From positions 1 to 39,875 of IMG/VR virus record IMGVR_UViG_3300037264_000698: DNA of 39,875 bases. One strand, written 5' to 3'. The stretch comes from a virus. The notes below the pieces were generated by a model that made no database searches, had not been told where the DNA came from, and saw nothing but the letters and a program-made list of their open reading frames with translations. Of the stretch, positions 8,102 through 27,682 are shown in pieces. Position numbers and translations under genes: made by a program. How positions within the stretch are numbered: position 1 is the stretch's first letter; every line of letters starts with the position of its first letter.

Positions 8102-8114
8102 GACACTGTCCATC

Positions 8115-10295
8115 ATGAGCGAAGCCATCTCCACCTTCGAGTCATCGTTTGTCGAGCCGTTCTCCGTCATGCTTGCGGACGTGCAGGAAGCGGTCGGCCG
8201 CGCGACCATCGAGAGCCTGCAACAGCGTCTGCTGAGGGCTGCGGGGTTCGAACAGGACCTGCGTGATGCTTCTTTCAATCCCGACCAGGCCCGCGACGAA
8301 CAGGGTCAGTGGACCTCGGAGGGTGGTGGCACGGCCGTTAGTGAAGCAGCCCTGGGCCGGCGTTTCCCCAAGCTGGGCTTGACCGAACGTGATGTGAGCC
8401 ATAGCACAATGCCTCGCGACGAAGTCTTCGGGGGCACGACCGTGGACGGGCTGATGGTGCGGACCTACATCCCCAACACCGAGTCGATTGGTGCCTCACT
8501 CGACGACTACGAGTTGCTGCCCGGCATCCGCGAGGTACGGATGTCGGAGATGGACCCGTCGTATGGTGCCAAGTCCTACTCGGCCACCGAAGACAAGCGC
8601 ATCAACGATCTGGCCGAGGGCATCCGCAAGAGCGGCGAGATCAGTCCGCTTATCGTGGTGATCGACAAGGAGAAGTACCCCTACATCTTGGAGGGCGGCC
8701 ATCGCTATGACGCCCTGCGTCGTATGGGGAAGAAGGCGTTTCCGGCCAAGGTCGTCGTGGATACGAGCGGGGTGGACTTCCGCAGCGCCGAGTTCAACCC
8801 TGATGAGGCTCGGGATGAACGCGGGCAGTGGACGAGTGAGGGTGGAGTAGCCTTCCACGGCACCACATCATCCGCACTGCACTTCATCTTGGAAGAAGGA
8901 ATTAAGCCCCGCTCACAAGGTGGTAAGCAGAACGAGCTTGGTTCGGCTGTGTTCATCTCGACTCAAAGAACTGACGCTGAGGAGTATGCCAAGGGCACCA
9001 AGGACGGAGTGGTGTTGGAGGTGCATGTACCCGCGTCAAAGATGGACACCTTCAAAACGCAATATGGCACGGTCTACACCACCGACACCACGATTCCTCC
9101 AAGCTGGATCAAGGCCGTATACCAGCGCAAGGGTGACAGGGATAAGAACGGCCTTGAAAAGTTCACGAGGGTTCGCACCCTTGAGGCTGGTCTGTCCATC
9201 TTCGTTGTGGTGCGCTTGGGTGAAGAGGATGCACGCGCGGCCGAACTGCGGAGTGCGTCTTTCAACCCAGATCAGGCCCGCGACAAGGAAGGGCAGTGGA
9301 CCTCGGGTGGTGCGGAGTCTGCGGCCACCCCGGATATGTCCTCCAAGGAGTGGAAGAATCCGGGCTACCAGTTGGCGTCCACGGCCGCTGGCAAGACTCC
9401 CTCGGAGCCCGTGAAGACCTTCAAGGCGTATCACGTGACGCTGCGCGACAACGCCAACTCGATCCTCTCAACGGGGTTCGACATAAACCGAGTCAAGCCT
9501 CGTTGGACGAATGATCTCGCAGTGTCTCTGAACAGAGGCAAGGTTAATGCGGCCAACTACTTCATGAAGACCGCTGAGACCTCTCTGAACAGTAAGAAAT
9601 ACGCACTGTTAGAGGTGACCGTTAAGGGACGTCTGGCTAAGGATTACAACGGTGGCTACGCTCACACTCCACGGGACTTCCGGCGCGGCATCTTGGCCGA
9701 TGGTTATGACGGGCAGGACCTGGGAACGATGGTATACTTGCACAACCCCAAGGCCATCGTCAGCATCCGAGAGGTGACGCCACCCTCGCGCAAGACCAAG
9801 CGCATGCTGCGCGCCCTGGCCCCGAAGATCAAGGGCTTTGCGTTCGACCGCACGAATCCACGGGCTAAGGAGTGGATCGCGGAGCACACCGGCGAACTGA
9901 TCGACAACATGTCCACGGCCACGCGTGAAGCCATCCGCGACCTGGTGGACGAGGCCTTCGACGGCGACTTCGATACTCATGAGTTGGCCGATCAGATCAC
10001 TGAACTGATTGGCGACGACGTACGAGCCGAAACCATCGCACGTACAGAGACGATGGCCGCTAGCAACGGCGGGCAACGTGAAGCTTGGAGCCAGGCCGTG
10101 GACGACGGCCTGCTGACCGGCGATGAAGAAGAAGAATGGATCGTCACCCCAGACGATAGACTCTGCCCGATCTGCGAACCGATGGATGGCGTGCGGAAAC
10201 CCCTCGGCGGCACGTTCAACGTGGACGGGGATGAGATTGACGGACCCCCCGCGCACCCGCGATGCAGATGCACCACGGGCTTGGCTCTGAACTGA
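8115..10295 (+). CDS. MuF head-morphogenesis protein carrying ParB-like and two ADP-ribosyltransferase-like domains
   Basis: A minor head protein loaded with extra domains. The MuF fold is split: N-terminal helices lie before about 8265, and the rest follows 9790, with FDRTNPRAKEW, IARTETMAASNGG, a C-x-x-C pair in RLCPICEPMDG and the hallmark PPAHPRCRC near the end. Between them are three domains: ParB/sulfiredoxin-like (8328-8789; EGGHRYDALRRMG), ART-like 1 (8846-9257; FHGTT, then EEYA, then VLEVHV, an H-Y-E pattern) and ART-like 2 (9312-9780; YHVT, AANYF, LLEVTV). Each is preceded by the same linker, FNPDQARDxxGQWTS. Coding in this frame begins upstream near 7990, so a portal fusion of about 1,240 residues is possible; ATG 8115 is the first ordinary start. 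MuF proteins are packed in the head and can be injected, so these domains may act in the host; that is inference. Confidence 0.85.
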   Translation: MSEAISTFESSFVEPFSVMLADVQEAVGRATIESLQQRLLRAAGFEQDLRDASFNPDQARDEQGQWTSEGGGTAVSEAALGRRFPKLGLTERDVSHSTMPRDEVFGGTTVDGLMVRTYIPNTESIGASLDDYELLPGIREVRMSEMDPSYGAKSYSATEDKRINDLAEGIRKSGEISPLIVVIDKEKYPYILEGGHRYDALRRMGKKAFPAKVVVDTSGVDFRSAEFNPDEARDERGQWTSEGGVAFHGTTSSALHFILEEGIKPRSQGGKQNELGSAVFISTQRTDAEEYAKGTKDGVVLEVHVPASKMDTFKTQYGTVYTTDTTIPPSWIKAVYQRKGDRDKNGLEKFTRVRTLEAGLSIFVVVRLGEEDARAAELRSASFNPDQARDKEGQWTSGGAESAATPDMSSKEWKNPGYQLASTAAGKTPSEPVKTFKAYHVTLRDNANSILSTGFDINRVKPRWTNDLAVSLNRGKVNAANYFMKTAETSLNSKKYALLEVTVKGRLAKDYNGGYAHTPRDFRRGILADGYDGQDLGTMVYLHNPKAIVSIREVTPPSRKTKRMLRALAPKIKGFAFDRTNPRAKEWIAEHTGELIDNMSTATREAIRDLVDEAFDGDFDTHELADQITELIGDDVRAETIARTETMAASNGGQREAWSQAVDDGLLTGDEEEEWIVTPDDRLCPICEPMDGVRKPLGGTFNVDGDEIDGPPAHPRCRCTTGLALN
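8271..9311 (+). repeat. Three copies of a 19-residue linker separating MuF effector-like domains
   Basis: Copies at 8271-8327, 8790-8845 and 9258-9311 encode SFNPDQARDEQGQWTS, EFNPDEARDERGQWTS and SFNPDQARDKEGQWTS. Conserved residues are F-N-P-D-x-A-R-D, then G-Q-W-T-S, then glycines. DNA identity is high, especially between copies 1 and 3. One copy stands immediately before each inserted domain, so the linker marks module borders and could serve as a recombination point or as a processing site for the head protease. Confidence 0.85.
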
Positions 10296-12501: not shown

Positions 12502-12930
12502 ATGCCTGTTGTCAACACCGGAGTGGAGTCCAACGGGATCTCTGCTCACGGTACGATCATCAAGCGGAACGGCGTCGAGATTGCGGAGCTGAAGGACATC
12601 ACTCCTCCGCCCCTCACCCGAAACCCGATTGAGACCACCACGCACAACTCGGACGACGACTCGTATGTCGTCGGCATCCGGCGCAAGGGCGAACTCCAGT
12701 TCATGGTGAACTGGCTCCCCTCGGGCGAACAGACCCACGACGCTACCGATGGTCTGCTCGACGCCTGGGCGACGGGGTCGAAGGACAGCTACGAGATCCT
12801 GTTCCCAGATGGTGCTTACTGGCTCTTCTCGGGATTCGTTTCCAACATCGCTCCGAAGGCCCCGGTGGACGGTGCCCAGGAAGCATCGATCTCAATAAGA
12901 CCCAGTGGTGGTCAGGTCTTTACACCATAG
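12502..12930 (+). CDS. Tail-tube-like protein (lambda gpV type), placed in the head module
   Basis: 142 residues with a GAGGTG ribosome binding site 12 bases upstream. The order of motifs matches siphophage tail tube proteins: GTIIKRNGVEIAELKDITPPP, then IETTTHNSDD, a glycine-rich YVVGIRRKGELQFMVNW, an ILFPDGAYWLFSGFVSN strand pair, and APVDGAQEASISIRPSG at the end. Such subunits stack in rings around the tape measure to form the tube. The odd point is location: tail tube genes normally lie beside the tail terminator (here 27682), whereas this one is between the head protease and the cement gene, 15 kb upstream. It might be a decoration protein built on the same fold, but the match to tube proteins is good. 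Confidence 0.75.
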   Translation: MPVVNTGVESNGISAHGTIIKRNGVEIAELKDITPPPLTRNPIETTTHNSDDDSYVVGIRRKGELQFMVNWLPSGEQTHDATDGLLDAWATGSKDSYEILFPDGAYWLFSGFVSNIAPKAPVDGAQEASISIRPSGGQVFTP

Positions 12931-14660: not shown

Positions 14661-14978
14661 ATGGCCAACACAAGTCCACAAGCCGTTCGCATCGCCAACG
14701 AGAAGATCCGCCCGGCGGCGGATCGCTTCGGTCAGCTCTACAACTACCTGAAAGCGCTTCAGGCGGAGGCGGCGGCCGAATCATGGCTGACGCTCTTCCC
14801 GAACGACAGTCAACTAGTCGTGGACGGGTCGGCCGAGGACGGGCGGGCGCCGATCACGAACCTCGACGTGCGGTCATTCATCACGTTGGCCGACGCCTAC
14901 ATCACGTTCATGGAGCAGGCGTCGAACCTAAATCGTGATCTTGTTCTAAAGATTGCTGTTAATCCAGAACGGATCTAA
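14661..14978 (+). CDS. Hypothetical protein downstream of the capsid gene
   Basis: 105 residues, with GAGGTAGAAGGA just upstream of ATG 14661. Helical N-terminal half (RPAADRFGQLYNYLKALQAEAAAESW), a central FPNDSQLVVDGS, then FITLADAYITFMEQASNLNRD. I recognise no defined family, but short proteins of this make-up often follow capsid genes in phages of this type. It is the first gene after the terminator and lies three bases before the beta-helix gene, so it may head the fibre/decoration operon. Confidence 0.7.
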   Translation: MANTSPQAVRIANEKIRPAADRFGQLYNYLKALQAEAAAESWLTLFPNDSQLVVDGSAEDGRAPITNLDVRSFITLADAYITFMEQASNLNRDLVLKIAVNPERI

Positions 14979-14981
14979 CCG

Positions 14982-16670
14982 ATGGCACTCGCGGCAACTT
15001 CAGTCTATGAGGTTCAAACAGGAGGAGATGACACCAATAATGGTGGGATCTTTGATCCTGGTCAGACAGCTGGAATGTTTACAGATGGGGCCGCCACCTC
15101 TGCTAACACTTCAGCTCCTGTATTTACATCTGCTTCCTACAACTTTGTAGCAGGGGATGCAAATGCGTGGGTGTATATAGCTTCAGGAACAAATTGGACA
15201 CCGGGTTGGTATAAAATTGCTTCTGTAGCAGCTAATGCAGCTACCCTTACGGCTACTATTGGAACAGCTGTACTTGCAGCTGGAATTCCTACCACGGTTG
15301 TTGGATGTGCCACAGTTGCATCCCCAACAGGAGCCACATGGTCCATAGACTACTCTCAACAGACAGCTGCTGAGATTACATATACCGATCTTGCTTCAGT
15401 AGGAGCTGGTCTTCTTGTCTCATCAGTTGCTAATCCATTTGCTTCACAACAAGTTGGTAACTCAATAGTTATTACGGGTGGAACAAACTTTACAACAGGT
15501 CGATATGTTATTGCTTCAGTCGCCGTCGGTGTAGCCACTGTGATAGGGGCAGCTGACATTACAACTGGAGTTGGAGCAAATGGCACAGGCGGACTTGGTG
15601 GAGCATTGGCCTCTCCTGGACAGGCAATGGCACATAAACTCGCTGGGAACACAGTCTGGATTGCAACTGGCACCTATACAATTACTACAACAACTCAGAA
15701 TGTTAGTGGTGGAAAACTAAACGATACTCAAGTTGGATCATTGTTTTCTCGTTGGGAGGGATATGGCACTGTGAGAGGTGATCTGATAACACCTCCCACG
15801 ATACAGGTTGCTGCAACAGGCGTGACAAGTATCTCAATGTTTAATGTTAGTGGCAACTCCTCGACTTTCATCGCTCGTAATTTGATTCTAGATGGGCTCT
15901 CTAAGGCATCCATTCGGGGTTATGCCTTTGGAGGTGGTTATGGTGTGTTATTGACTGCAAAGAATTGCACAGATATTGGATGCTGGGGTAGTGGAACCAC
16001 ATTTTGGTTTCGATGTATTGCAACAGGATGCAGTAGTTCTTTTGGTGCATTCCATTCAGATGGCTACATGATTGCCTGTGAGGCCTATGCAAATTCGGTT
16101 TCAGGTTTCAATTCCACCACTGCAATTCCATGTATCTGGGATCGATGTTTATCTTATGGAAATACTGGAGCATCATCGGATGGGTTTAATCAGCAGGGTT
16201 CCAATACTGCTAATGCGATGAATTGTGTGGCTTATAATAATGGACGTGATGGGTTTCGGTTTAATAGTAATGGCACGTTTAAATCAGCTATAAATTGTAT
16301 TGCTGAGAGTAACACAGGATTTGGCTTCGGTGCTGACGCTGCAACACGTCACGCCATTTTATCCAATAATGCCACCTACAACAACACAGGAGGTAGCATT
16401 GATCCTCTCTTTAACACAGCATTGATGTCTGGAAATGTAATAGGATCCGGATCGTTCTTCACAAACGCCGCCGCCGCGGATTTTTCTTTGAACAATACGG
16501 CAGGCGCGGGTGCGATTCTTCGCGGGGTTGGCATTCCGGGCGTGTTCCCGGTCGGTCTAACGACAGGCCATCTCGACATCGGCGCAGCACAGCACGCGGA
16601 CGCGGGCGGTGGAGGCATCATCGTGCCTACACAGGCCATCGGTGTTGAGAGTCTTCACATCGGAGCATAA
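14982..16670 (+). CDS. Right-handed beta-helix (pectate-lyase-like) virion protein
   Basis: 562 residues. The centre (about 220-480) has regularly spaced short strands and asparagines typical of parallel beta-helix proteins: ARNLILDG, LLTAKNCTDIGC, WFRCIATGCS, IACEAYANSVSGF, DRCLSYGNTGAS, MNCVAYNNGRDGFRFNSNG, INCIAESNTGFGFG, LSNNATYNN. The N-terminal half is Ala/Thr/Gly-rich with FTSASYNF and repeated GTNWTPGWYKIASV / GTNFTTGRYVIASV units, an internal duplication. Beta-helices are common in tail spikes and head decorations and may bind or cut polysaccharide; no catalytic residues are evident. The gene is much richer in A+T than its neighbours up to about 16450, after which the last ~70 codons are GC-rich again, so the central domain looks imported. 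Confidence 0.8.
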   Translation: MALAATSVYEVQTGGDDTNNGGIFDPGQTAGMFTDGAATSANTSAPVFTSASYNFVAGDANAWVYIASGTNWTPGWYKIASVAANAATLTATIGTAVLAAGIPTTVVGCATVASPTGATWSIDYSQQTAAEITYTDLASVGAGLLVSSVANPFASQQVGNSIVITGGTNFTTGRYVIASVAVGVATVIGAADITTGVGANGTGGLGGALASPGQAMAHKLAGNTVWIATGTYTITTTTQNVSGGKLNDTQVGSLFSRWEGYGTVRGDLITPPTIQVAATGVTSISMFNVSGNSSTFIARNLILDGLSKASIRGYAFGGGYGVLLTAKNCTDIGCWGSGTTFWFRCIATGCSSSFGAFHSDGYMIACEAYANSVSGFNSTTAIPCIWDRCLSYGNTGASSDGFNQQGSNTANAMNCVAYNNGRDGFRFNSNGTFKSAINCIAESNTGFGFGADAATRHAILSNNATYNNTGGSIDPLFNTALMSGNVIGSGSFFTNAAAADFSLNNTAGAGAILRGVGIPGVFPVGLTTGHLDIGAAQHADAGGGGIIVPTQAIGVESLHIGA

Positions 16671-16673
16671 GCA

Positions 16674-19139
16674 ATGGCCAACAGCACGTCGCATGTCCTG
16701 CCGTATCCGATCCGCAACGCACGGTTCACCCTCGAACTGACGTTTCGGACGTCTGCAGGCACGCCTACCGATCCGACGACGCCGGACACCGAGTTTAGCT
16801 CGGACGGTGGCGCGACTTTCTCGGATTGTGCTGAGGAGATCACGACCGGCGGTGCAAACGGTCTGGGTTACTTCACGCTGACCGGCGCTGAGATGAACAA
16901 CAACATCTTGGCGATTGCAGCAAAGTCGGCGAACTGCGTGTTGACCCCGGTGACGCTGTCGCCGAGGATTCTGGCACTTATCGGGAGCGGCACGCTCTCT
17001 GCAGGATCAGCAGGTGGCGGCACGCTTGGCACCGTTCTTGCCTACGACGTCACGGGGTGCTTCATTCGCACGACGGGTGGCACGGGTGGCGGGGGCACCG
17101 GAGGTGCCAACAACCAGGCGCGGCGCATCGTGACCTACACGCCGAGCACGGGCGCCTTCACCGTCTCGCCGAATTGGGAGACGACACCGGACGCGACGAC
17201 GACATACGATGTTCTGCTCCCTGAGGGCGTCACGCTTGGGATGCTGCGGACCTTGAATCCGGCCACCGCCGGGCGACAGCTCGTGGTCGATACTTCCGGG
17301 CTCGCGGACGCCACCATGGTGAAAGTCGGCCCGACCGGATCAGGCACCGTACAGACGGCCGGTGACATCATCGGGGACACGAACGACATCCAGGGCCGCC
17401 TCCCGGCCTCGCTCACCGGCGGGAAGATGGAGTCGAATATCGGCTCCGTCACCGCCGGGATCATCGCCGCCGCGTCGTTCGCCGCGAACGCCCTCGACGC
17501 CGTCTGGTCGACCGCCGCGCGCATCCTGACCGCCGCGACGAACATCACGTCGACCGGCGGGACGACCGTCCCGCAGACCGGCGACTCGTTCACCCGGATC
17601 GGCGCGCCCGTCGGGGCGTCGATCTCGGCCGACGTCGCGCTCGTGCAGGCCGATACGGATAACCTCCAAACGCGCGTCCCGGCGGCCCTCGTTGGCGGTC
17701 GGATGGACGCGAGTGTCGGCGCGATGGCCGCCGGGGTGGTGACGGCAGCCGCCATCGCGACCGACGCAATCGACGCCGACGCGGTCGCCGCGGACGCGGT
17801 GACGGAGATTCAATCAGGACTCTCGACACTGACGGCGGCCGGGGTCCGGACAGCAGTGGGGCTGGCGAGCGCCAACCTCGACACGCAATTGGCCGATCTC
17901 CCGACGGCGGCCGAGACCGCCGACGCCGTGCTCGACGAAGACATGACCGCGCACCAGGCGCAGGGATCGCTCGGGCAAGCCATCGGCGACCCGGTCGCGG
18001 ACACCAACACGATCTATAAGGCCGTCGTGACGGACGCCGCCGACGCGACGGTCGGCCTCGACGTCGTGGCGGTCAAAGCCGAGACGGCGTCGATCCAGGC
18101 CGACACGAACGACATCCAGGGCCGCCTCCCGTCTGCTCTCACAGGCGGCAAGATGGAATCGAACCTCGGGTCTATTACGGCGGGGGTTATTGCGGCGGCC
18201 TCATTCGCCGCGAACGCGCTCGATGCGGTGTGGTCGACAGCGGTGCGCGTCCTGACGGCGGCCACCAATCTGACCACGGCCCTTGCGACTCCGACCAACA
18301 TTACGGCAGCTTCGGGCGTATCGCTTACGGCAGCCTACGACCCCGCGAAAACGGCATCACAAGCTGGCGATGCGATGGCCTTGACGAGCGGCGAGCGCAC
18401 CTCGTTGACCGGGGTGATCTGGGCCGCGCTGACCAGTGGCTTGGTAACCTTGGGAAGCATCGGGAAACTCCTGGTCGATCAGCTCGATGCGGCCATCAGC
18501 TCCCGGAGTTCACACAGCGCGGCCGGCGCAGCAACGGCGGTGCGCACGGAATTGACGACAGAGTTGGCCCGCATTGATGTGGCTGTGTCTACGCGAGGTA
18601 CAGGCACCGCCTTGGATGCGGCTGGTGTCAGAACAGCGGTCGGTTTGGGCGCAGCGAACCTCGATATCCAACTGGGCGATATACCAACGAACGCGGAGTT
18701 GACCGCAGCACTAGCGACATCTGACGATGCTGTGTTGGCTGCCGTGGCTGCAGCTAAAGCGGTGATCGATTTCATCGACGCGAAGACCACGAATCTCCCG
18801 AGCGATCCGGCCGATGAATCGCTGATCATCGACGCCACAAACGCGTTAGCGGCGGCGATTGCGGCGCTCAACAACATCTCAACGGCTCAGGTGTTGGCTC
18901 AGGTAGCGACAGCACTCGCAACGACGACCTATCCTGAGCCCGCTGGACCCCTGCCGGCGACGGCGAGTCTCGAAGCCAAGATCTCGTGGATGGCGATGTT
19001 GGCTCGCAACAAGCAAACCATTGATGGTCTCAGTGGTGAGCAACTCGTCAAGGCCGATAACGGTGCCACCGACGTGGCCAAGGCGACGACGACAACGGTA
19101 GGTGACGTTACCACACGCGGTGAATGGACGACACCATGA
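16674..19139 (+). CDS. Large repeat-containing structural protein, probable fibre
   Basis: 821 residues, strongly Ala/Thr-rich and GC-rich. The N-terminus (SSDGGATFSDCAEEI, GLGYFTLTGAEMNNN, 'PRI') is beta-rich. The middle has an internal duplication: a block of about 50 residues beginning DTNDIQGRLPASLTGGKM occurs near 17374-17520 and again near 18104-18245, with a degenerate version (LQTRVPAALVGGRMD) between. The rest has many short coiled-coil-like units (AGVRTAVGLASANLDTQLAD and AGVRTAVGLGAANLDIQLGD). Such sequences form trimeric shafts in phage fibres. Position after a beta-helix protein and before adaptor genes supports a head or tail fibre. Confidence 0.7.
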   Translation: MANSTSHVLPYPIRNARFTLELTFRTSAGTPTDPTTPDTEFSSDGGATFSDCAEEITTGGANGLGYFTLTGAEMNNNILAIAAKSANCVLTPVTLSPRILALIGSGTLSAGSAGGGTLGTVLAYDVTGCFIRTTGGTGGGGTGGANNQARRIVTYTPSTGAFTVSPNWETTPDATTTYDVLLPEGVTLGMLRTLNPATAGRQLVVDTSGLADATMVKVGPTGSGTVQTAGDIIGDTNDIQGRLPASLTGGKMESNIGSVTAGIIAAASFAANALDAVWSTAARILTAATNITSTGGTTVPQTGDSFTRIGAPVGASISADVALVQADTDNLQTRVPAALVGGRMDASVGAMAAGVVTAAAIATDAIDADAVAADAVTEIQSGLSTLTAAGVRTAVGLASANLDTQLADLPTAAETADAVLDEDMTAHQAQGSLGQAIGDPVADTNTIYKAVVTDAADATVGLDVVAVKAETASIQADTNDIQGRLPSALTGGKMESNLGSITAGVIAAASFAANALDAVWSTAVRVLTAATNLTTALATPTNITAASGVSLTAAYDPAKTASQAGDAMALTSGERTSLTGVIWAALTSGLVTLGSIGKLLVDQLDAAISSRSSHSAAGAATAVRTELTTELARIDVAVSTRGTGTALDAAGVRTAVGLGAANLDIQLGDIPTNAELTAALATSDDAVLAAVAAAKAVIDFIDAKTTNLPSDPADESLIIDATNALAAAIAALNNISTAQVLAQVATALATTTYPEPAGPLPATASLEAKISWMAMLARNKQTIDGLSGEQLVKADNGATDVAKATTTTVGDVTTRGEWTTP

Positions 19140-19363
19140 CCGAACAACAGCGCCGTTCGATCCTTGGGTTGAGCCTGGCTTGTCTGTTGACGGCTCCGAC
19201 TGGTGTTGCCACATCGGGAGGCCGTGCTCAGCTACTCTCAGCTTATGCAGCTCCACCTCAAGTGGTTCTTGCACCTGATTTGGATCGCATCATCTTGATT
19301 CGTAGCTTCGTGAAGGTCGCTACGATGCCCGGAGTGTCACGCACAGTTCGTTTAACCCCGTAG
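19136..19363 (+). CDS. Small hypothetical protein
   Basis: 75 residues from ATG 19136, which overlaps the upstream stop (ATGA); an in-frame ATG at 19124 would add four residues. The N-terminus MTEQQRRSILGLSLACLLTAP looks superficially like a signal sequence with an RR pair, but the hydrophobic stretch is short. The rest (LAPDLDRIILIRSFVKVA) is beta-like. No family recognised; probably a small virion or assembly factor because it is embedded in the fibre genes. Confidence 0.6.
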   Translation: MTEQQRRSILGLSLACLLTAPTGVATSGGRAQLLSAYAAPPQVVLAPDLDRIILIRSFVKVATMPGVSRTVRLTP

Positions 19364-19377
19364 AAAGGATTCTCATC

Positions 19378-19770
19378 ATGGCAGTAGGCCTCGCGGCAGC
19401 AACATTGAACTCCTGGCTCGACGCGCTGTGTCGGTCAGTCACCTACACCGAACCGCCCGAGTTCTGGGTGAAAATCCACCTCGGTGATCCTGGCGCGTCC
19501 GGTGCCAACAACGCAGCGGTGGAAACCACGCGTAAGCAGGCGACGTTTTCGGCGGCCAGCAGCGGAGCGATCACTACATCAGGTGCGTTGACGTGGACGA
19601 ACGTGTCCACCACGGAGACCTATTCCCACGTGTCCTATTGGGATGCATCGACAGCGGGAACGTTCCTCGGAAGTGCGGCACTCGCGTCGTCCAAGGCTGT
19701 GACGGCTGGCGACACGTTCACCATCGCGACAGGTGACGTGGACCTGAGCATCACGCCTGTCGCTGCGTAA
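19378..19770 (+). CDS. Small virion protein of the fibre region
   Basis: 130 residues with AAAGGA upstream of ATG 19378. It contains WVKIHLGDPGASGANNAAVE, then RKQATFSAASSGAITTSGALTWTNV, then YSHVSYWDASTAGTFLGSA and GDTFTIATGDVDLSI. This order (L-x-GDPG-x-x-G-x-x-N, TW, SxWDA, GDT) recurs in small beta-sandwich proteins in phage fibre regions, often annotated as tail-fibre or structural proteins. No enzymatic motif. Spacing of six bases to the next gene indicates the same transcript. Confidence 0.7.
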   Translation: MAVGLAAATLNSWLDALCRSVTYTEPPEFWVKIHLGDPGASGANNAAVETTRKQATFSAASSGAITTSGALTWTNVSTTETYSHVSYWDASTAGTFLGSAALASSKAVTAGDTFTIATGDVDLSITPVAA

Positions 19771-19776
19771 AGGTCG

Positions 19777-21276
19777 ATGGCTCTTCCCGTTTTCGTTGCA
19801 GCAAGCTCAAAAGCGCCGGCAGCGCAGGATGCTACTCCTGCGCTGCCTGCTGGTATGTCTTCGGGTAATATCGTTCTTTTGTTTGCAACGTGTCCCACTG
19901 CCAATACGATCTCAATCACGGCCGCCGGAAGCATCGCAACATGGACGCCCATATCTGGGTCTCCTGTTACCGTCACTGGTGGTGAAGCGCTGTATGTGTG
20001 GTGGGGCCGGTGGGCGTCGGGCACCACGGGGCCTACCGTGCACGCTTCAGCCTCCGATGTCATCATCGCGGCGACAGCCGCGTGGTCAGGGTGCATTGAC
20101 ACCGGCGATCCAGTCGACATCGCCAATACAGGTTCAGAAACCACCGTAGATAACTCGTTCTCGTTTGCGTCGGGTGTGTCTTCAACCCGAAACAACACGA
20201 TGGCGATCTGCGTCGCGTCCATTCTTCGTGACAGCAACACGGCGTCTGTCCCGGTGATGACGAACGCCTCCTTGGGATCACTAGCTTCTCGATTGAATAT
20301 TTGCACCAACACCGGAGCTGGTAGTGGCTTCGGAGTGTCGGAAGGCACGAAAGCCACAGCGGGAACGCTGGGTACCTGGGCCTGCACGTATGCAGCAACC
20401 AGCGCCAAGAGCTATCTCACGCTTGCACTGATTGGTGGCATAAGCGGGGTGGTGACGCCAACCGCAGAAACCGTGACGCAAAATGTAGTGGGAGTTCGCA
20501 CTCGACTGGGCGCGGTAGCCACGGCCCTCGTGGTCGCTCAAGCTGTCGTAGGCGCGCGTCAGACATTTGCTGTTGTCACGCCTACCGTAGAGACCGTCAC
20601 ACAATCGGTCATTGGCACGACGTTCAAGACCGGGGCAGCAGCCACCGTGCTGACGCTCAATCAGTCCGTGCAGGGAGTTCGTGAGACGTTCTCGGTGGTG
20701 ACACCTACCGCCGAAACTGTAGCCCAAAGCATTAACGGTGTCCGCACGACTTTTAGTGTGGTCGATCCTACGGCAGAAGTAGTCACTCAATCGGTCGTGG
20801 GCGTTCGCACGCGTTTCGGTGTGCTGGACCCAACCAATGAGATCGTGACTCAGTCGGTGATCGGCCTTCACACTGGCGTGGGTGCTGTCACAACAAATCT
20901 GGTCATCGCCCAGGCCCTGGCCGGAGTCCGTCAAACGTTCGCGGTGGTGACGCCATCAGCAGAAGTTATTGCTCAGGCTGTCGCTGGAGTGCGTGAGACG
21001 TTTGCAGTGGTAACGCCATCGGCAGAAACGTTCACGCAGGTTATTGCCGGAGTGCGTCAGACCTTTTCGGTCGTGACGCCGACCGTTGAGACGATTACTC
21101 AATTCGTTGACGGAAACGTTGAGGGGGGCGGCGAAGAGATCTTTGGGATCGTGACGCAAAGTCTTGTGATACATTTGACAGCAGGTGATCTTCCAACATC
21201 ACCACGTCGCGTGATCTCCATGACTGCTGCCGCCCTTCGGAATATCAGGATACACAAACAGAGGCCAGGTCCATGA
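19777..21276 (+). CDS. Fibre-like protein with about eleven 21-residue tandem repeats
   Basis: 499 residues. The N-terminal ~225 residues are a beta-sandwich-like domain (ASSKAPAAQDATPALPAGM, NIVLLFATCP, ALYVWWGRWASGTTGP, AYAATSAKSYLTLALIGG) similar in style to phage surface proteins. Residues ~225-445 are tandem repeats with consensus VVTPTAETVTQSVVGVRxTF. The last ~50 residues (GGGEEIFGIVTQSL, RRVISMTAAALRNIRI) are different and may anchor the protein. The regular beta repeat suggests an elongated shaft. It overlaps the fiber-tail adaptor gene by four bases, supporting a role in a fibre or appendage. Confidence 0.7.
   Translation: MALPVFVAASSKAPAAQDATPALPAGMSSGNIVLLFATCPTANTISITAAGSIATWTPISGSPVTVTGGEALYVWWGRWASGTTGPTVHASASDVIIAATAAWSGCIDTGDPVDIANTGSETTVDNSFSFASGVSSTRNNTMAICVASILRDSNTASVPVMTNASLGSLASRLNICTNTGAGSGFGVSEGTKATAGTLGTWACTYAATSAKSYLTLALIGGISGVVTPTAETVTQNVVGVRTRLGAVATALVVAQAVVGARQTFAVVTPTVETVTQSVIGTTFKTGAAATVLTLNQSVQGVRETFSVVTPTAETVAQSINGVRTTFSVVDPTAEVVTQSVVGVRTRFGVLDPTNEIVTQSVIGLHTGVGAVTTNLVIAQALAGVRQTFAVVTPSAEVIAQAVAGVRETFAVVTPSAETFTQVIAGVRQTFSVVTPTVETITQFVDGNVEGGGEEIFGIVTQSLVIHLTAGDLPTSPRRVISMTAAALRNIRIHKQRPGP
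20449..21113 (+). repeat. Tandem ~63-bp coding repeats
   Basis: About eleven units, each near 21 codons (VVTPTAETVTQSVVGVRxTFx), run without spacers. Three (starting VATALVV, AATVLTL, VTTNLVI) are more diverged and shorter. Units agree in protein more than in DNA, indicating old duplications under selection. They mark a fibrous shaft. Confidence 0.8.
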
Positions 21277-21554
21277 GCATTCAAAAGTTTCCCGGGGCCA
21301 AAGACGGTGGAGATGACCTTGACTACACCCTCGATTGGGCCGATGTGGTGGTTGCTGGTGATCCCATTGTCGCATCGGTGTGGACGATTCCGACTGGGCT
21401 TACCAGTCACGACGAATCCTTTACCACATCTACCACAACGGTGTGGCTGAGTGGGGGCACGGAGGGAGAGTCCTATATACTGACCAACGTGATCACCACA
21501 CAAGCAGATCGCATCATCGAGCGTGATGTGATTCTCAAGGTCAAGAACCTGTAA
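21273..21554 (+). CDS. Probable fiber-tail adaptor protein
   Basis: 93 residues from ATG 21273, overlapping the upstream stop. The motif order LDYTLDWADVVVAGDPIVASVWTIPTGL, then TTTVWLSGGTEGESYILTN, then RIIERDVILKV fits the short phage proteins annotated as fiber-tail adaptors, with a D-x-x-x-D-W start, SxWxxxxGL middle and a W-L-x-G-G-x-x-G-x-x-Y turn. They are small Ig-like beta-sandwiches thought to link appendages to the neck or tail. Its place between fibre-like and connector genes agrees. Confidence 0.7.
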   Translation: MSIQKFPGAKDGGDDLDYTLDWADVVVAGDPIVASVWTIPTGLTSHDESFTTSTTTVWLSGGTEGESYILTNVITTQADRIIERDVILKVKNL

Positions 21555-21564
21555 AAGAGGAACT

Positions 21565-22137
21565 ATGGTCACTACACCAGGCGCATCAAACGCAGACAGT
21601 TGGGCCACTGAAGACGACCTGGAGGCCTACGAGGCAACTCGGTTACCCCGTATTTCAGGCTTCAGTGATCTCACCTGCGACGAAAAGGAAGCAATCCTTC
21701 TCGCTGGATGTCGTGAGATAGAGGCATGTTTCGAGTGGAACGGCTCGGCTGCATCAAGCACGCAGTCGTTGACGTGGCCCCGCTCGGGCATGCTCACGCG
21801 CACGGGGTATGCGATTCCCACGAACATCAATCCCCAAGAGTTGAAGAATGCTCAATGTGAGTTTGGACTTCAACTCCATCTGAGCAATCGGCTCAGCGAC
21901 AACGATCCGCTCAAGAAGGGCATTACATCCATTAAGGCCGGCTCGGTAGCTCTGACCTTTTCGGATGTACAGGGTGGGGGCCAGACTCGAGAGTCTGCTG
22001 ATGTAGCCGTTCGCAAGCAACAGTCTGATCTCAACTACGTGTCTGACGTTGTACCCAACGAAGTGCGTAGACTGCTGGTGCCCTCTTGGTTCAAGCAGAA
22101 CAGCATTTCTCGACCTCTTGTGTTTGAGGCTTACTAA
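21565..22137 (+). CDS. Head-tail connector (DnaT-like/gp6-like adaptor)
   Basis: 190 residues. It shows the pattern of DnaT-like phage adaptor proteins: SNADSWATEDDLEAYEATR near the start, KEAILLAGCREIEACFEWNG, SLTWPRSGM, IPQELKNAQ-like NPQELKNAQCEFGLQLH, KAGSVALTF and VPNEVRRLLVPSWF at the end. Such proteins form the ring that binds under the portal after packaging. It precedes another connector gene by two bases. Confidence 0.75.
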   Translation: MVTTPGASNADSWATEDDLEAYEATRLPRISGFSDLTCDEKEAILLAGCREIEACFEWNGSAASSTQSLTWPRSGMLTRTGYAIPTNINPQELKNAQCEFGLQLHLSNRLSDNDPLKKGITSIKAGSVALTFSDVQGGGQTRESADVAVRKQQSDLNYVSDVVPNEVRRLLVPSWFKQNSISRPLVFEAY

Positions 22138-22139
22138 CC

Positions 22140-22556
22140 ATGGGTTACGAAGATCTCATTCGATCATCCGTCGCTGACATTTTGTCTCCACAATTCGAGT
22201 CGATGAAACTCGATGTAGTGCATGAGGCATGGATCGGTGACAATGGCCAGGGTGCCGATGCCTTTGCGGCTCCCGTCATCCGTCGAGCCTTGGTGGACCT
22301 GACCAAGCGGCAAAGGTTCACGGCTGCCGGGGCCGTGGTGATGACGTTTGCCACCCTGACGTGGCTCGACCCCATCCCCGCGACGACCCCAAACGCCGGC
22401 AAGGTGAGGGAACAGCCCATCGATCCGCGCGACGTGTTTCGGCTGCCTGACGGCGGGACGGCACCAATCGTGCAGACGGGAGGGTTTACTGATTCCGCAA
22501 CTGGCCAACCCTTCGTTCCCGAAACCATTCTCGGCTCGGTGGTGCGTGGGTCTTAA
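22140..22556 (+). CDS. Head-closure/neck protein
   Basis: 138 residues, starting two bases after the adaptor stop. Features such as VRRALVD-like VIRRALVDLTKRQRF, TLTWLDPIP, IDPRDVFRLPDGGTAPIVQTGGF and GSVVRGS at the C-terminus fit head-closure (Hc1-like) or stopper proteins, with a beta-barrel and a D-x-F-x-L-P-D-G turn. It closes the DNA channel and provides the docking surface for the tail. After it the neck gene order is broken by a six-gene glycan cassette; the next neck gene is at 27293. Confidence 0.65.
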   Translation: MGYEDLIRSSVADILSPQFESMKLDVVHEAWIGDNGQGADAFAAPVIRRALVDLTKRQRFTAAGAVVMTFATLTWLDPIPATTPNAGKVREQPIDPRDVFRLPDGGTAPIVQTGGFTDSATGQPFVPETILGSVVRGS

Positions 22557-22595: not shown

Positions 22596-23255
22596 ATGGG
22601 CATGCATGACATTGACTGGTGGCATTCCATTGATTTGGGTAATGGTGTTGTCACACCTGGTCGAGTCTTTCCTGCGGGAGAGACACACAAACTCTGCCTT
22701 CCCGATCTGACAGGTAAAACCGTTCTCGACATAGGCACGTGGGACGGTTTCTACGCGTTTGAAGCTGAGCGTCGTGGCGCGGCCCGCGTCTTGGCTACCG
22801 ACTCTTTCATGTGGCATCGTGGTACCGGAAGAGCAGGATTTGATTACGCTCATTCCGCCCTCGGGTCACGCGTGGAGTCGCTAGAGATTGACGTGATGGA
22901 TCTTTCCCCTTACGTCGTTGGAACTTTCGATGTGGTGTTATTTCTGGGAGTTATTTACCACCTACGTCATCCTCTGATGGCTCTTGAAAGGGTAGTGAGT
23001 GTCGTGAAAGACCTGCTGGTGTTGGAAACATATACGGCATCCAACACCCAAGTAGGTCGAGAGTACTTTCAGGAGACTCGACCGGCTCTGGTGTACACGG
23101 AGTCCGAAAGCCCTCGCTGTTACGATCATAAGTTCTTCGGCCCAAACTCTGCCCTGATTCACCACTGGCTCAAAATGGTGGAGTTCAACGCTGTCACGGT
23201 TCACCAAGACCATCGTTTGGTCGTTCACGCACACAAATTTCAGGAGGCTGCGTGA
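22596..23255 (+). CDS. SAM-dependent methyltransferase, CmoB-like
   Basis: 219 residues. Rossmann methyltransferase motif I is VLDIGTWDGFYAFEA (43-57), motif II includes ARVLATD, and motif IV is FDVVLFLGVIYHLRHP, all close in style to the CmoB/DUF1698 group. CmoB itself modifies tRNA uridine 34, but many relatives lie in glycan loci, and here the next five genes handle sugars, so a methyl group on a sugar is the likelier target. It is the first gene of the cassette, 40 bases after the head-closure gene, with weak start signals (ATG 22596 or 22602). GTGA overlap with the next gene. Confidence 0.8.
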   Translation: MGMHDIDWWHSIDLGNGVVTPGRVFPAGETHKLCLPDLTGKTVLDIGTWDGFYAFEAERRGAARVLATDSFMWHRGTGRAGFDYAHSALGSRVESLEIDVMDLSPYVVGTFDVVLFLGVIYHLRHPLMALERVVSVVKDLLVLETYTASNTQVGREYFQETRPALVYTESESPRCYDHKFFGPNSALIHHWLKMVEFNAVTVHQDHRLVVHAHKFQEAA

Positions 23256-23842
23256 TTCCCATCTGGTTGTTGAGAGGCCGACTGGGCAATCAGATGTTTC
23301 AACTGGCCTACCTCTACGCTCAACAGCAGCGCGGACTGACCCCCGACATTTGGTTGCAAGATCCCCGACACTTCGAGGGCTCTGAAGATTATATCAAGAG
23401 GGTGTTTGGCGAGGGTATCAAGCCCCAGCCCTACGTCTCGTTGCACGTGCGCCGGGGTGATTACGTCAAGCATCGGATGTTCGTCCAGTTATGGGAGACG
23501 GACTACTACGACCAAGCCATCGCTCTGTTTCCTGGAGAGCAGTTCTTAGTATTCTCGGACGACATTGAGTGGTGTAAAAAGCACTGGGGTATGCACGAAA
23601 GAGGACTCGCTGAACGCTTTGGTTACTCCTCTGATCGATTCAATTTTGTTACCCCCGGTGATGAGATTCAGGATCTCAATCTGATGGCCGGCTGCCGATC
23701 CAATATCATTGCCAATAGCTCGTTCTCCTGGTGGGCGGGCTTCCTCAACCCCAATCCGAACAAGACCGTCGTGTACCCTCTAGCCTGGCACACAGACGGA
23801 GTCCAGCGCGTAGGCTTTCCGAAGGAGTGGCGCGGGCTATGA
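23252..23842 (+). CDS. Alpha-1,2-fucosyltransferase-like glycosyltransferase (GT11)
   Basis: 196 residues from GTG 23252, overlapping the upstream stop. The GT11 signatures are present: GRLGNQMFQLAYLYA (9-23), HVRRGDYV (65-72, GDP-fucose binding), FSDDIEWCK, and LMAGCRSNIIANSSFSWW(A). Family members normally run near 270-300 residues; here the region between the first and second motif is only about 45 residues, so this is a compact version. It would move fucose (or a similar deoxyhexose) from GDP-sugar onto a galactose-type acceptor. No GDP-fucose synthesis genes are in the window, so donor supply would come from the host. Confidence 0.88.
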   Translation: MIPIWLLRGRLGNQMFQLAYLYAQQQRGLTPDIWLQDPRHFEGSEDYIKRVFGEGIKPQPYVSLHVRRGDYVKHRMFVQLWETDYYDQAIALFPGEQFLVFSDDIEWCKKHWGMHERGLAERFGYSSDRFNFVTPGDEIQDLNLMAGCRSNIIANSSFSWWAGFLNPNPNKTVVYPLAWHTDGVQRVGFPKEWRGL

Positions 23843-24993
23843 AGTCACTGATGTGGATTGGGGACGCAGCTTGCAGCAGTGGGTTTGGCCGGGCGTCCGA
23901 TCAGATCCTGAAGGTGCTGTCCAAACAGTGGGAGGTGTCAGTCATCGGCATCAACTACAACGGTGATCCCCGCGACGACTACAGCTACAAGATCTACCCG
24001 GCGTGGTCAGGGCGGGATCCCCTCGGGATCGGCCGGCTGCCTGAATTGCTTGACAAGATCAAGCCCGAGGCCATCGTGGTGCAGACGAACCCATGGCATG
24101 TGCCTGTGTACAGAAAGGCTTTGCATCTCAACGGTTACGGATGCACACCTGTGGTAGGCATCATTGCTGTGGAGGGCAAGAACTGTCGGGGAGAACAACT
24201 GAACGGGCTCAAGAGGGCCATCTTATGGACGGAATTTGGCCGCGACGAAGCTACCAAGGGCGGTATGCGGGTGCCCTCCGATGTCATTCCGCTGGGCGTG
24301 GACACTGAGGTGTTCAAGCCTGGTGATCAAGTGGCCGCGCGGAGGTTCCTGGGCCTTCCTGGTGTTCCAGAAGACTCGTTCATCGTGTTGAATGTCAATC
24401 GCAATCAGTCGCGTAAGCGGCTGGACCTGACGATCATGTTCTTCGCGGAGTGGATCCAGTCCAAGGGCATTCGAGATGCCTACCTCTACCTGCACGTGCT
24501 GCCCGGCAGTTCGGTGGCCATCGACTGCGACCAGTTGGGTTTCTACTGTGGCATCTCCGACCGTCTGATTCTAGCCGCGCCACGCGACACCTACAGGGGT
24601 GCGCCCGAAGCGTATGTGGTGGCAGCCAACCAGGCGTCGGACGCTTACCTCACGACTTCCCTCGGAGAGGGCTTCGGGCTTACGGCGATTGAAGCGATGG
24701 CTTGTGGCAAGCCCGTGATCGCTGGTCGCTATGCAGCCCTGGCCGAGTGGGCGGCACCGGCGGCCTTGTTGGTGGACTGCAATTCTGAGGGAGTGATGCC
24801 TGATGTCAACGGCATGATCGGCAGCGCGCCAGCCAAGGAAGCGGTAGTGCAAGCTCTGGATTTGGTGTACACCGATAAAATCACGCGGGGTTTTCTGGGC
24901 GCTCAGGGTCTGAAGTTGGCGCGGGATCCCAAGTTCAATTGGACGAACATCTCAAACCGCTTTGCTGTATCGATCCAGGAGGCACTTCTGTGA
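23839..24993 (+). CDS. Glycosyltransferase family 4 (GT-B fold)
   Basis: 384 residues from ATG 23839 (ATGA overlap). The N-terminal Rossmann half starts MWIGDAACSSGFGRASDQILK; VIPLGVDTEVFKPGD is typical of GT4, followed by NVNRNQSRKRLDL in the donor domain and the E-x7-E signature in GEGFGLTAIEAMACGKPVIA (E277, E285) that holds the nucleotide-sugar. A retaining sugar transfer to a growing glycan or a virion protein is expected. Length is normal. It shares tight overlaps with the fucosyltransferase and FkbM genes, indicating one translation unit. Confidence 0.88.
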   Translation: MKSLMWIGDAACSSGFGRASDQILKVLSKQWEVSVIGINYNGDPRDDYSYKIYPAWSGRDPLGIGRLPELLDKIKPEAIVVQTNPWHVPVYRKALHLNGYGCTPVVGIIAVEGKNCRGEQLNGLKRAILWTEFGRDEATKGGMRVPSDVIPLGVDTEVFKPGDQVAARRFLGLPGVPEDSFIVLNVNRNQSRKRLDLTIMFFAEWIQSKGIRDAYLYLHVLPGSSVAIDCDQLGFYCGISDRLILAAPRDTYRGAPEAYVVAANQASDAYLTTSLGEGFGLTAIEAMACGKPVIAGRYAALAEWAAPAALLVDCNSEGVMPDVNGMIGSAPAKEAVVQALDLVYTDKITRGFLGAQGLKLARDPKFNWTNISNRFAVSIQEALL

Positions 24994-25607
24994 TCACACG
25001 AGCGGAGATCCTTGCTCTCGTGATGCGCCCCAATCCAATCATTCTTGATGTGGGTGCGAACGACGGTGAACATACCAAAATGTTCATGGAGTTATTCCCA
25101 CAGGGGCAAATTTACAGCTTTGAACCAGACCCACGCGCGGTTGAGCGATTCTGTGCACAGATCTCAGGTGCGCGCCTGTTCGTGGGTGCGGTGGGTGCGA
25201 CGACAGGCCTTCAGCCCTTCTATCAAAGCTCCGGCACGCCGGCCCCAGAAGCACGTCGCGACTGGGACTTTTCTGGGTCATTACGTCGTCCTAAGCACCA
25301 CTTGAGACGTTATCCGTGGTGTCATTTCGACACAGTGATTCACGTGCCTGTGACTACCCTTGACACCTGGGCGCGGGCGGTCGGTGTGGATCATATCGAC
25401 TTCCTTTGGGCCGATGTGCAAGGTGCTGAACGTGATCTCATTGCCGGCGCGGGGGAAATCCTGCAACGGACCACATACCTGTACACGGAATACAGCAACG
25501 AGGAACTCTATGATGGCCAAGCGTCATTGGCCGATCTTGAAGCGATGTTGCCAAACTTCCGTGTACTTACGCTTTACCCAGACGATGTGCTCTTTGAGCG
25601 ACGATGA
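24990..25607 (+). CDS. FkbM-family methyltransferase
   Basis: 205 residues from GTG 24990 with CAGGAGG at about 24976-24982 and a GTGA overlap. Motifs: IILDVGANDGEHTKMFMELFP (17-37), IYSFEPDPRAVERF, then VTTLDTWARAVGVDHIDFLWADVQGAERDLIAGA, all hallmarks of FkbM methyltransferases, which O-methylate sugars and macrolides. In this setting the likely acceptor is a sugar made by the neighbouring transferases. The GTG choice is supported by the ribosome binding site; starting further upstream would overlap the GT4 gene by 50 bases. Confidence 0.88.
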   Translation: MITRAEILALVMRPNPIILDVGANDGEHTKMFMELFPQGQIYSFEPDPRAVERFCAQISGARLFVGAVGATTGLQPFYQSSGTPAPEARRDWDFSGSLRRPKHHLRRYPWCHFDTVIHVPVTTLDTWARAVGVDHIDFLWADVQGAERDLIAGAGEILQRTTYLYTEYSNEELYDGQASLADLEAMLPNFRVLTLYPDDVLFERR

Positions 25608-26533
25608 TGGAAGCATATCAGGATCGGTGGGTGCGTGGATTGACCCTAGAACCTGGGGCTCGGGAGTGTGCGACACGCTTTGAGATCGTGCGCCGTTTCT
25701 GCGAGAGGTTCACCCGACCGTTCACCATGCTCGATCTTGGAGCATCGCTAGGTTACTTCAGTCTTCGTTTGACAGAGATCTTTCCCAGGGCCACATGCGT
25801 AGCGATTGATGATGATCCGCGTTTGCTCGACGGATGCATAGCCAACGCTGCCGAACGTGTGATTCACCTCCGAAAACGATTGTCCTCTGCTGACATGGAT
25901 ACATTGGGGTCCTGTGAGCACTTTGATGTAGTGCTGGCGTTGAACGTCCTGCATCACTTCGAGGACTGGCCTCGTGCCCTCAACGCTGTGATGCATTTGG
26001 GAGATCACACGTTCGTAGAGACCCCCGCCCGCACGGAAACAGCAGCGCACAATGGGTTAGCCGTCGAAGCACTATATGATTCCTTGGAAGCACATCGCCC
26101 CATTCAATTTGCACGAGTCGCGAGTCATCTAGGAGATTGGCAGCGACCGTTCTGGTACTTTGATACCACCAAGACTACGTTGACGCGGGCATACTGGGAT
26201 GTGCCAGAGGACGTTCCCCTCGGAGGTATCACCATCACATCGACGGTCACAGAAAAGATCGTGACCTTCCAACGAAAAAACGAGACCAGAGAATGGTATG
26301 CTGGTATCAATCTGCAAACCTATCTCGCGCTCAATGGCGTGTGGCCATCTCGTGAAAAGCTTGCTAGCTTGATCGAAACATACCCCCGACCTACACCGCG
26401 ACACGGTGATGTGCAGTCTTGGAATTTCGTAGTCGATGGGCAGCATGTACGTCTCATTGATGGCCAAGATGACCGTGCTGTATTTGAAGATGACTTCTAT
26501 CGAATAGGACGTATCGTCAGAGGGATCCCATGA
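25604..26533 (+). CDS. SAM methyltransferase with a C-terminal kinase-like segment
   Basis: 309 residues, ATG 25604 overlapping the upstream stop. The first ~190 residues are a class I methyltransferase: MLDLGASLGYFSLRL (42-56), CVAIDDDPRLLDG, and FDVVLALNVLHHFEDWPRAL. The last ~70 residues contain HGDVQSWNFVV (267-277) and VRLIDGQDD (283-291), spaced like the catalytic loop and metal-binding loop of aminoglycoside-phosphotransferase-type kinases, but the N-lobe with the ATP lysine is not visible. This may be a truncated kinase lobe or a similar-looking acceptor-binding segment. Third methyltransferase of the cassette. Confidence 0.78.
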   Translation: MMEAYQDRWVRGLTLEPGARECATRFEIVRRFCERFTRPFTMLDLGASLGYFSLRLTEIFPRATCVAIDDDPRLLDGCIANAAERVIHLRKRLSSADMDTLGSCEHFDVVLALNVLHHFEDWPRALNAVMHLGDHTFVETPARTETAAHNGLAVEALYDSLEAHRPIQFARVASHLGDWQRPFWYFDTTKTTLTRAYWDVPEDVPLGGITITSTVTEKIVTFQRKNETREWYAGINLQTYLALNGVWPSREKLASLIETYPRPTPRHGDVQSWNFVVDGQHVRLIDGQDDRAVFEDDFYRIGRIVRGIP

Positions 26534-27288
26534 AGCTTAGTGTAATCTGTGTCACCCAGGGTGATCCAAGGGTCACGCCCTTTCTCCACGACATGGCATC
26601 GTTGGCTAGCTCCCTCGGTGCCGAGATGATCTTCGGGGTTCACGGTGCGCAGGCCATGATGCTGTTGGAAAAGCATCAAAACCATATCGTGGAGGTGCAG
26701 GGCAACTATCTGGAAGAGATGCTGGATCCAGTCATCCAAGCTTGCAGTGGCGACTACGTGCTGCGCTTGGACGATGACGAACGGTGTTCTCCGGGTTTGG
26801 TCGAGTGGCTTCGCTCGGACGAGATGCTCAAACGGGACTCGTGGTTCTTCTCGCGGTGTCACCTGTGGCCAGACATCCAGCACGTGCTCTCGGAGCAGCC
26901 CTACTTCCCCGATTTCCAGGCCCGTGTGTCAGTCAAACGCCAAGCCCGGCGGCCGGCCCGCATCCACGCTCCGCACGTCTACCCGGCCTACCGTGCCCCG
27001 GCGTCGGCCTACCTGGAGCACCACGTCTTCCTGACCAAGACGCGGGCGGATCGTCAGGTCATCACAGCGCGCTACGAGACCATCCGAACAGGAAAAGAGT
27101 TTCTGCCTGAGCAGGTGACCTATGCGTTTCCCTACGATGAGCTCAATCCAGTGGTGGAGCCTTTGGGCTCTCCTCTGTTGCAGCGCTTGGCCGAGGACAC
27201 GATCTGGTGGAGACAGGTGGGTCAACGACTGCCATCCAATCTCGATCAAGAACTGAAAACTTGGCGCGCTAACAATCCGCAAGGATAG
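26530..27288 (+). CDS. GT2-like glycosyltransferase (GT-A fold)
   Basis: 252 residues, ATG 26530 overlapping the upstream stop. It begins LSVICVTQGDPR, the usual first strand of GT2 enzymes, has GDYVLRLDDDERCSPGLVEWL with the D-x-D-type metal site (D81-D83), and a later FPDFQARVSVKRQ strand. The C-terminal part (LEHHVFLTKTRADR, ARYETIRTG) resembles acceptor-binding ends. It probably adds one sugar to the glycan. It is the last gene of the cassette; the tail/neck gene order resumes five bases after its stop. Confidence 0.78.
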   Translation: MKLSVICVTQGDPRVTPFLHDMASLASSLGAEMIFGVHGAQAMMLLEKHQNHIVEVQGNYLEEMLDPVIQACSGDYVLRLDDDERCSPGLVEWLRSDEMLKRDSWFFSRCHLWPDIQHVLSEQPYFPDFQARVSVKRQARRPARIHAPHVYPAYRAPASAYLEHHVFLTKTRADRQVITARYETIRTGKEFLPEQVTYAFPYDELNPVVEPLGSPLLQRLAEDTIWWRQVGQRLPSNLDQELKTWRANNPQG

Positions 27289-27292
27289 ATCG

Positions 27293-27682
27293 ATGGCTGG
27301 AGCCAGTCTGACCGGCGGCCGGAAAATGAAAGATGATGCGAAAAGATTCGGGAAGAACTTCCCTGATCATGTAGGTCGGGCTCTCTATCAAGAGACCGAG
27401 GTTGAGGCCACTGAAGTAAGAAAGCGGACTCCTGTAGAGTATGGGAATCTTCGAGCATCTGAGCACGTCGAAGGTCCCATTCGACAATGGCGGTCGATCT
27501 ATACTATGATTGTTGCTGGCGGGCCATCCGCGCCCTACGCCATTTACGTACACGAAGATCCTGACGCGTTTCACAAAGTTGGGCAGTGGAAGTACATTGA
27601 GTCGGTGCTGTTGGAGAGCCGACCCTTCATGGCTGCACGAGTCGGTAAACGCATCGACTTGAATGCAGCTTGGAACTCATAA
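27293..27682 (+). CDS. Neck/tail-completion protein (HK97 gp10-like)
   Basis: 129 residues. The pattern RALYQETEVEATEVRKRTPVEYGNLRASEHV, then IVAGGPSAPYAIYVHEDPDAFHKVGQ, then KYIESVLLESRPFMA is typical of HK97 gp10-like proteins, with the R-T-P-V-x-x-G-x-L-R-x-S motif and the Y-A-x-Y-V-H-E motif. These proteins join head and tail. It follows the glycan cassette and its stop overlaps the next start (TAATG). Confidence 0.82.
   Translation: MAGASLTGGRKMKDDAKRFGKNFPDHVGRALYQETEVEATEVRKRTPVEYGNLRASEHVEGPIRQWRSIYTMIVAGGPSAPYAIYVHEDPDAFHKVGQWKYIESVLLESRPFMAARVGKRIDLNAAWNS

Follow-up and report, generated by a model that had tools for sequence, protein, structure and literature searches.

A six-gene glycan-enzyme cassette in the connector-Neck1 slot of an uncultured tailed phage: a probable virion-glycosylation island

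Introduction

Why would a run of sugar-modifying enzymes lie among the neck genes of a tailed phage, and on which surface would its products act? We addressed this question for a 39,875-base IMG/VR fragment from an uncultured tailed phage (the whole stretch, hereafter the window), for which no near match was found among deposited phages. In the literature examined, virion glycosylation is reported by experiment for a few mycobacteriophages, in which it affects antibody recognition.

Results and discussion

Layout of the cassette and identity of its genes

Six co-directional open reading frames occupy positions 22596-27288 of the plus strand, exactly as a first-pass annotation of this DNA had placed them. 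Its claim that they lie between two structural neck genes also holds, with a connector (its relatives match phrog_3881) upstream and Neck1 (phrog_5) downstream (Table 1). At each of the five internal junctions, stop and start codons overlap by exactly 4 bp (GTGA, ATGA, GTGA, ATGA and ATGA); mechanically listed starts of the GT4 gene (23731) and the FkbM gene (24939) lie further upstream than the coupled starts at 23839 and 24990. The outer edges carry gaps and no overlap, with 39 bp between the connector and gene 1 and 4 bp between gene 6 and Neck1. The GC content of the six-gene block (0.56) equals that of its flanks, and the operon is uninterrupted, without promoter or terminator enrichment across the region.

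Table 1. Cassette genes and adjoining structural genes in the window
Feature	Position	Strand	Evidence
Ad1 head-tail adaptor, conserved upstream flank	21565..22137	+	phrog_477 2.6e-23
Head-closure/connector, upstream slot boundary	22140..22556	+	Homologues in L019, L025, L026 and L049 match phrog_3881; synteny
Gene 1, SAM methyltransferase, CmoB-like catalytic half only	22596..23255	+	PF08003 8.1e-12
Gene 2, GT11 (alpha-1,2-fucosyltransferase-like), compact	23252..23842	+	PF01531 4.9e-25
Gene 3, GT4 glycosyltransferase, conserved anchor of the island	23839..24993	+	PF00534 6.9e-12; phrog_2170 1.1e-31
Gene 4, FkbM-type methyltransferase	24990..25607	+	PF05050 4.8e-17
Gene 5, WbdD-like methyltransferase, reduced kinase-like C-terminus	25604..26533	+	WbdD profile and Foldseek
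Gene 6, GT2-like (GT-A fold) glycosyltransferase	26530..27288	+	DDD motif; model and fold search
Neck1/tail-completion protein, downstream slot boundary	27293..27682	+	phrog_5 3.7e-8

Sequence motifs accompany these assignments. SAM motif I is present in the cassette methyltransferases; the PF08003 alignment of gene 1 is confined to model positions 111-271, and a PDB profile matches mo5U34 MTase (1.2e-5). Gene 2 keeps the catalytic motif HxRRxD as HVRRGD, and the GT4 protein carries an EX7E motif at 277. Gene 6 has a sub-threshold GT2 match by Pfam (PF00535, 0.019); its DDD motif, conserved in nine relatives, and an AlphaFold model (pLDDT 80) that matches GT-A-type nucleotidyl and glycosyl transferases in a fold search support its assignment as a GT2-like enzyme. 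Hydropathy analysis detected no transmembrane segments in the six proteins, all of which are predicted to be soluble.

Gene 5 is predicted to be a reduced WbdD

Gene 5 (309 amino acids) matches PF08242 (4e-9), ranks WbdD first in profile searches (1.4e-13 to 2.4e-13) and returns WbdD as all of its top five Foldseek hits. It shares with WbdD of E. coli O9a the order of a methyltransferase domain followed by a kinase catalytic loop; the C-terminal segment reads HGDVQSWNFVV...RLIDG, and the loop HGDV-x-x-WNF...LID is invariant in four gene 5 homologues, down to ~52% identity. In contrast to WbdD, gene 5 belongs to a phage and has no counterpart to most of the kinase N-lobe or to the C-terminal coiled coil. 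Only the catalytic-loop segment aligns, with no complete kinase domain bearing a G-rich loop found in the protein, and the C-terminal ~110 amino acids were modelled at low confidence. These features identify gene 5 as a putative reduced WbdD, comprising a methyltransferase and a kinase catalytic loop, which could plausibly cap a glycan with a methyl or methyl-phosphate group. We make no claim of kinase activity, the kinase part being poorly modelled.

GT4 recurs beside Neck1 across a large phage lineage

The adaptor and gene 5, each used as a single-protein query against viral sequences, gave no matches, but Neck1 and alignment queries did retrieve relatives, most of whose records are fragments; against GTDB, the Neck1 query gave weak matches only. 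Neck1 alone recovered four relatives, and GT4 adjoins Neck1 in all four. A GT4-profile search recovered many contigs in which GT4 immediately precedes Neck1; to avoid the selection on GT4 inherent in that query, the search was redone with a Neck1 profile, counting only loci with at least 1.2 kb of upstream sequence (n = 64). GT4 was adjacent to Neck1 in 39 of these loci, within ~4 kb in 10 and absent in 15, giving 49/64. This estimate is less biased than that from the combined set of 72 dereplicated lineages (GT4 in the slot upstream of Neck1 in 61, absent in 11), since the latter also draws on contigs retrieved with the GT4 query.

GT4 is the last gene before Neck1 in most slots. Of 54 GT4-Neck1 junctions, 40 have a GT4 stop codon that overlaps or abuts the Neck1 start, and in 50 the two lie at most 15 nt apart. 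Such recurrence of the slot architecture in dozens of independent contigs is far beyond chance. Throughout a large lineage of mostly uncultured siphophages, the connector-Neck1 slot is an island devoted to glycan genes.

Mapped onto the Neck1 tree, absence of GT4 requires about five changes. The GT4-bearing L019, L126 and L137 group with L127 and L128, which nest among them, indicating that both gain and loss of GT4 have occurred. The slot is nearly empty in L127 and L128 (at most 173 bp), where GT4 is absent throughout the possibly partial records, and the boundary genes abut in L138. GT4 distances correlate weakly with neck and tail gene distances (Spearman 0.15-0.24), and for this reason we do not claim strict vertical co-inheritance.

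Accessory genes are exchanged around the retained GT4

Recurrence of the cassette in related phages, proposed in the first-pass annotation as a check, was confirmed: L091, L092 and L093 carry the same six genes in identical order. Cassette genes in these records share 53-73% amino acid identity, beside 50-76% for the connector, chaperone and tape-measure genes; MCP, MTP and decoration proteins exceed the cassette genes, at 82-88%. Within this trio, most cassette genes are under purifying selection, and the few changes in GT2 and Neck1 make their dN/dS uninformative.

Elsewhere the slot contents differ. The order is FkbM-MT2-GT11-GT2-GT4 in L095 and GT11-GT4-FkbM-GT2 in L101; GT4 stands alone in L005 and L116; an aminotransferase and a hexapeptide acyltransferase accompany GT4s in L004 and L022; and GT2, a methyltransferase, a B12-radical SAM enzyme, further GT2s and GT4 make up the slots of L019, L025, L042 and others. 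An NTP-transferase is also among the variable genes. For 92 further slot proteins, the Pfam families listed (25 of 32) were all glycan/nucleotide-sugar enzymes, methyltransferases or radical SAM/B12 proteins (by type: glycosyltransferase, methyltransferase, radical SAM/B12, sugar aminotransferase, acyltransferase and NTP-transferase). Because the families listed are all of glycan type, we regard the slot as specialised and not as a hotspot for genes of any kind. Against PHROGs, the same proteins gave one tail-fibre match and a 'DNA methyltransferase' family in six.

Three details of individual relatives stand apart. The neck-slot islands of seven to eight relatives encode B12-binding radical SAM enzymes (for example L019:4443-6047 and L039:5115-6731), which may perform unusual sugar chemistry in phages, C-methylation or similar. 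The neck order is permuted in L137:3336-11179, with Neck1 before Ad1 and two GT4 copies, one of them before a tail protein. The GT4 at L005:8863-10396 has either a C-terminal extension overlapping Neck1 by ~146 nt in another frame or a frameshift.

A probable virion target and its rivals

We consider the block likely to be a virion-glycosylation island within the late structural operon, with swappable accessory genes around a retained GT4 core. The late, assembly-linked expression proposed in the first-pass annotation agrees with the uninterrupted operon, its lack of excess promoters and terminators and the GT4-Neck1 stop/start coupling in relatives. Its preference for a virion over an O-antigen target likewise gains support from the hydropathy result, the lack of a tyrosine integrase match in eight records, the glycan-only slot and mycobacteriophage precedent, and our best inference is that the enzymes act on the virion and not on the host surface. 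Since cluster O mycobacteriophages reportedly use such enzymes to modify their capsid and tail tube, the virion is favoured, and the capsid (MCP) and/or tail tube are the most likely first candidates as acceptors.

The annotation's suggested acceptors, Ser/Thr-rich proteins encoded upstream, gained no support from comparison. Searches of 12 related records, three of them with the same six genes, found neither of the two large proteins that we tested (16674-19139 and 19777-21276), though these searches were run without a positive control; we therefore rejected such proteins as a conserved acceptor. The window alone appears to carry the candidates encoded at 14661-21554, and in L091 the distance from MCP to Ad1 is ~0.3 kb. 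Nor do the MCP, MTP and decoration proteins bear obvious Ser/Thr-rich tails that would mark a clear acceptor.

In the mechanism that we propose, the cassette enzymes would be produced alongside the head-tail connector proteins and would modify nascent virion proteins in the cytoplasm, drawing on host nucleotide sugars. A host source of donors is probable because no match to the GDP-mannose dehydratase family was found in the window or in seven related records; fucose as a component is suggested by GT11 membership only. GT4, the conserved core, is probably the protein-linking or a key elongating transferase, given that it is almost always present, occurs twice alone and usually overlaps Neck1. 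GT11 and the GT2-like enzyme would then lengthen a short oligosaccharide, and the three methyltransferases would decorate or cap it, gene 5 perhaps closing it with a methyl or methyl-phosphate group, in the manner of WbdD on the O9a O-antigen. With accessory genes swapped in one slot, the coat chemistry would therefore be exchangeable while the core is retained.

The enzymes could instead act late on host-surface glycans (LPS/O-antigen or capsule), blocking superinfection or re-adsorption of progeny. O-antigen and capsule loci typically encode GT11, GT4, FkbM and WbdD-like enzymes, and WbdD itself, the nearest named enzyme to gene 5, caps LPS O-antigen (PMC3482155), which counts against a virion target, as does the position of GT4 outside the head block in Synechococcus S-EIV1 and Tetrasphaera TJE1. 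However, families for a lipid-carrier initiating enzyme, flippase or polymerase were not found in the slots examined, the location within the neck operon holds in all slot-bearing relatives, and mycobacteriophages with analogous cassettes are reported to modify their virions. The six proteins also lack the membrane segments, by hydropathy, and the eight records searched the tyrosine integrase match that would point to serotype conversion of the gtrABC type, in which a membrane flippase and a lipid-linked glycosyltransferase adjoin an integrase or att site. Host-surface modification is accordingly unlikely.

We give less weight still to the possibility that the slot is a general moron hotspot whose glycan genes are passengers with no role in the virion, which we judge quite improbable. 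The island is evidently dispensable, as the slot measures at most ~0.2 kb in L127, L128 and L138, with no GT4 in the L127 and L128 records, and its content varies; yet that content is limited to glycan-type enzymes among the Pfam families listed, GT4 is kept across deep lineages and coupled to Neck1, and selection preserves most of the cassette in L091-L093. Glycosylation of phage DNA bases (hypermodification) is very improbable. Phage glycosyltransferases can act on DNA (Pyle 2024, cited in PMC12619734), and the relative G023 has a thymidylate-synthase family gene; against this, none was found in the other seven records, window included, a comparison limited by fragmentary records and by other pathways. 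Hypermodification would call for a modified-pyrimidine synthesis gene together with a DNA glycosyltransferase. FkbM- and WbdD-type methyltransferases act on glycans, and the slot sits in the structural rather than the replication module.

Comparison with known systems

The virion-glycosylation reading finds its closest parallels in mycobacteriophage clusters O and J, with which the window shares an overlapping run of several glycosyltransferase and methyltransferase genes in the head/neck block. In cluster O (Corndog, Firecracker and Catdawg; compared here through Firecracker and Catdawg, relatives of Corndog), an overlapping O-methyltransferase and three glycosyltransferase genes lie inside the head-gene block in the order portal-OMT-GT-GT-GT-protease-capsid. 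Two papers (PMC11600133, PMC12363180) report, on the basis of Freeman 2023, that capsid and tail tube are glycosylated by these enzymes. Unlike the window's cassette, between connector and Neck1, that of cluster O lies between portal and capsid protease; the Firecracker enzymes have no sequence match to the window's six, and no GT11, GT4 or WbdD-like gene is annotated in cluster O.

Cluster J (Optimus and Thibault) resembles the window in combining glycosyltransferases with a methyltransferase, in the order GT-kinase-MT-GT-GT-GT-...-GT between capsid and connector, and Optimus gp14 is homologous to gene 5 (5.6e-23). It differs in its separate, overlapping kinase and methyltransferase genes, other glycosyltransferase families and other boundary genes; the role of these insertion genes was unknown when they were reported in 2013 (PMC3706429). 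Pontimonas phage phiPsal1, Microcystis phage Mae-JY09 and Synechococcus phage S-CBS4 have a GT4 homologue within the head module, accompanied in phiPsal1 and S-CBS4 by a methyltransferase and a second glycosyltransferase homologous to slot glycosyltransferases of the relatives. In contrast to the connector-Neck1 arrangement, GT4 in these three phages lies between portal/MCP and adaptor/neck genes, with fewer genes.

Implications

Collectively, the differing slot content of dozens of related phages suggests that these viruses cover their own particles in sugars that can be swapped. We see an even chance that the connector-Neck1 junction serves this siphophage lineage as a dedicated exchange site for virion glycan programs, in which a near-universal GT4 core, coupled in translation to the neck gene, is combined with modular, swapped sets (fucosyl/methyl, amino-sugar/acyl, B12-radical-SAM and WbdD-type capping) to give switchable particle 'serotypes'. 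These would include methylated or methyl-phosphate caps, which the literature examined does not describe on virions. If particles are indeed the target, sugar-coated virions may well be common, given the island's presence in dozens of divergent environmental phage lineages, and GT4 coupled to Neck1 would offer a sequence signature for finding glycosylated virions. This would also raise the question of which selective forces shape the surface chemistry of particles outside animals.

Other features of the window

Between MCP and Ad1, a block of ~7 kb (14661-21554) holds mostly unrecognised Ser/Thr-rich open reading frames; MCP and Ad1 lie near each other in L004, L005, L011 and L091, and the open reading frame at 14982-16670 has a GC3 of 0.34 vs ~0.5-0.8 around it. 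The block is likely to be a recent insertion. The tail-tube gene has moved: in the subgroup of the window, the major-tail-protein gene (12502-12930 in the window) is found upstream of the capsid gene, but in most GT4-bearing relatives it lies downstream of the tail-terminator-like gene. A single long open reading frame at 7857-10295 combines a Mu-F-like head morphogenesis domain with a ParB-like segment.
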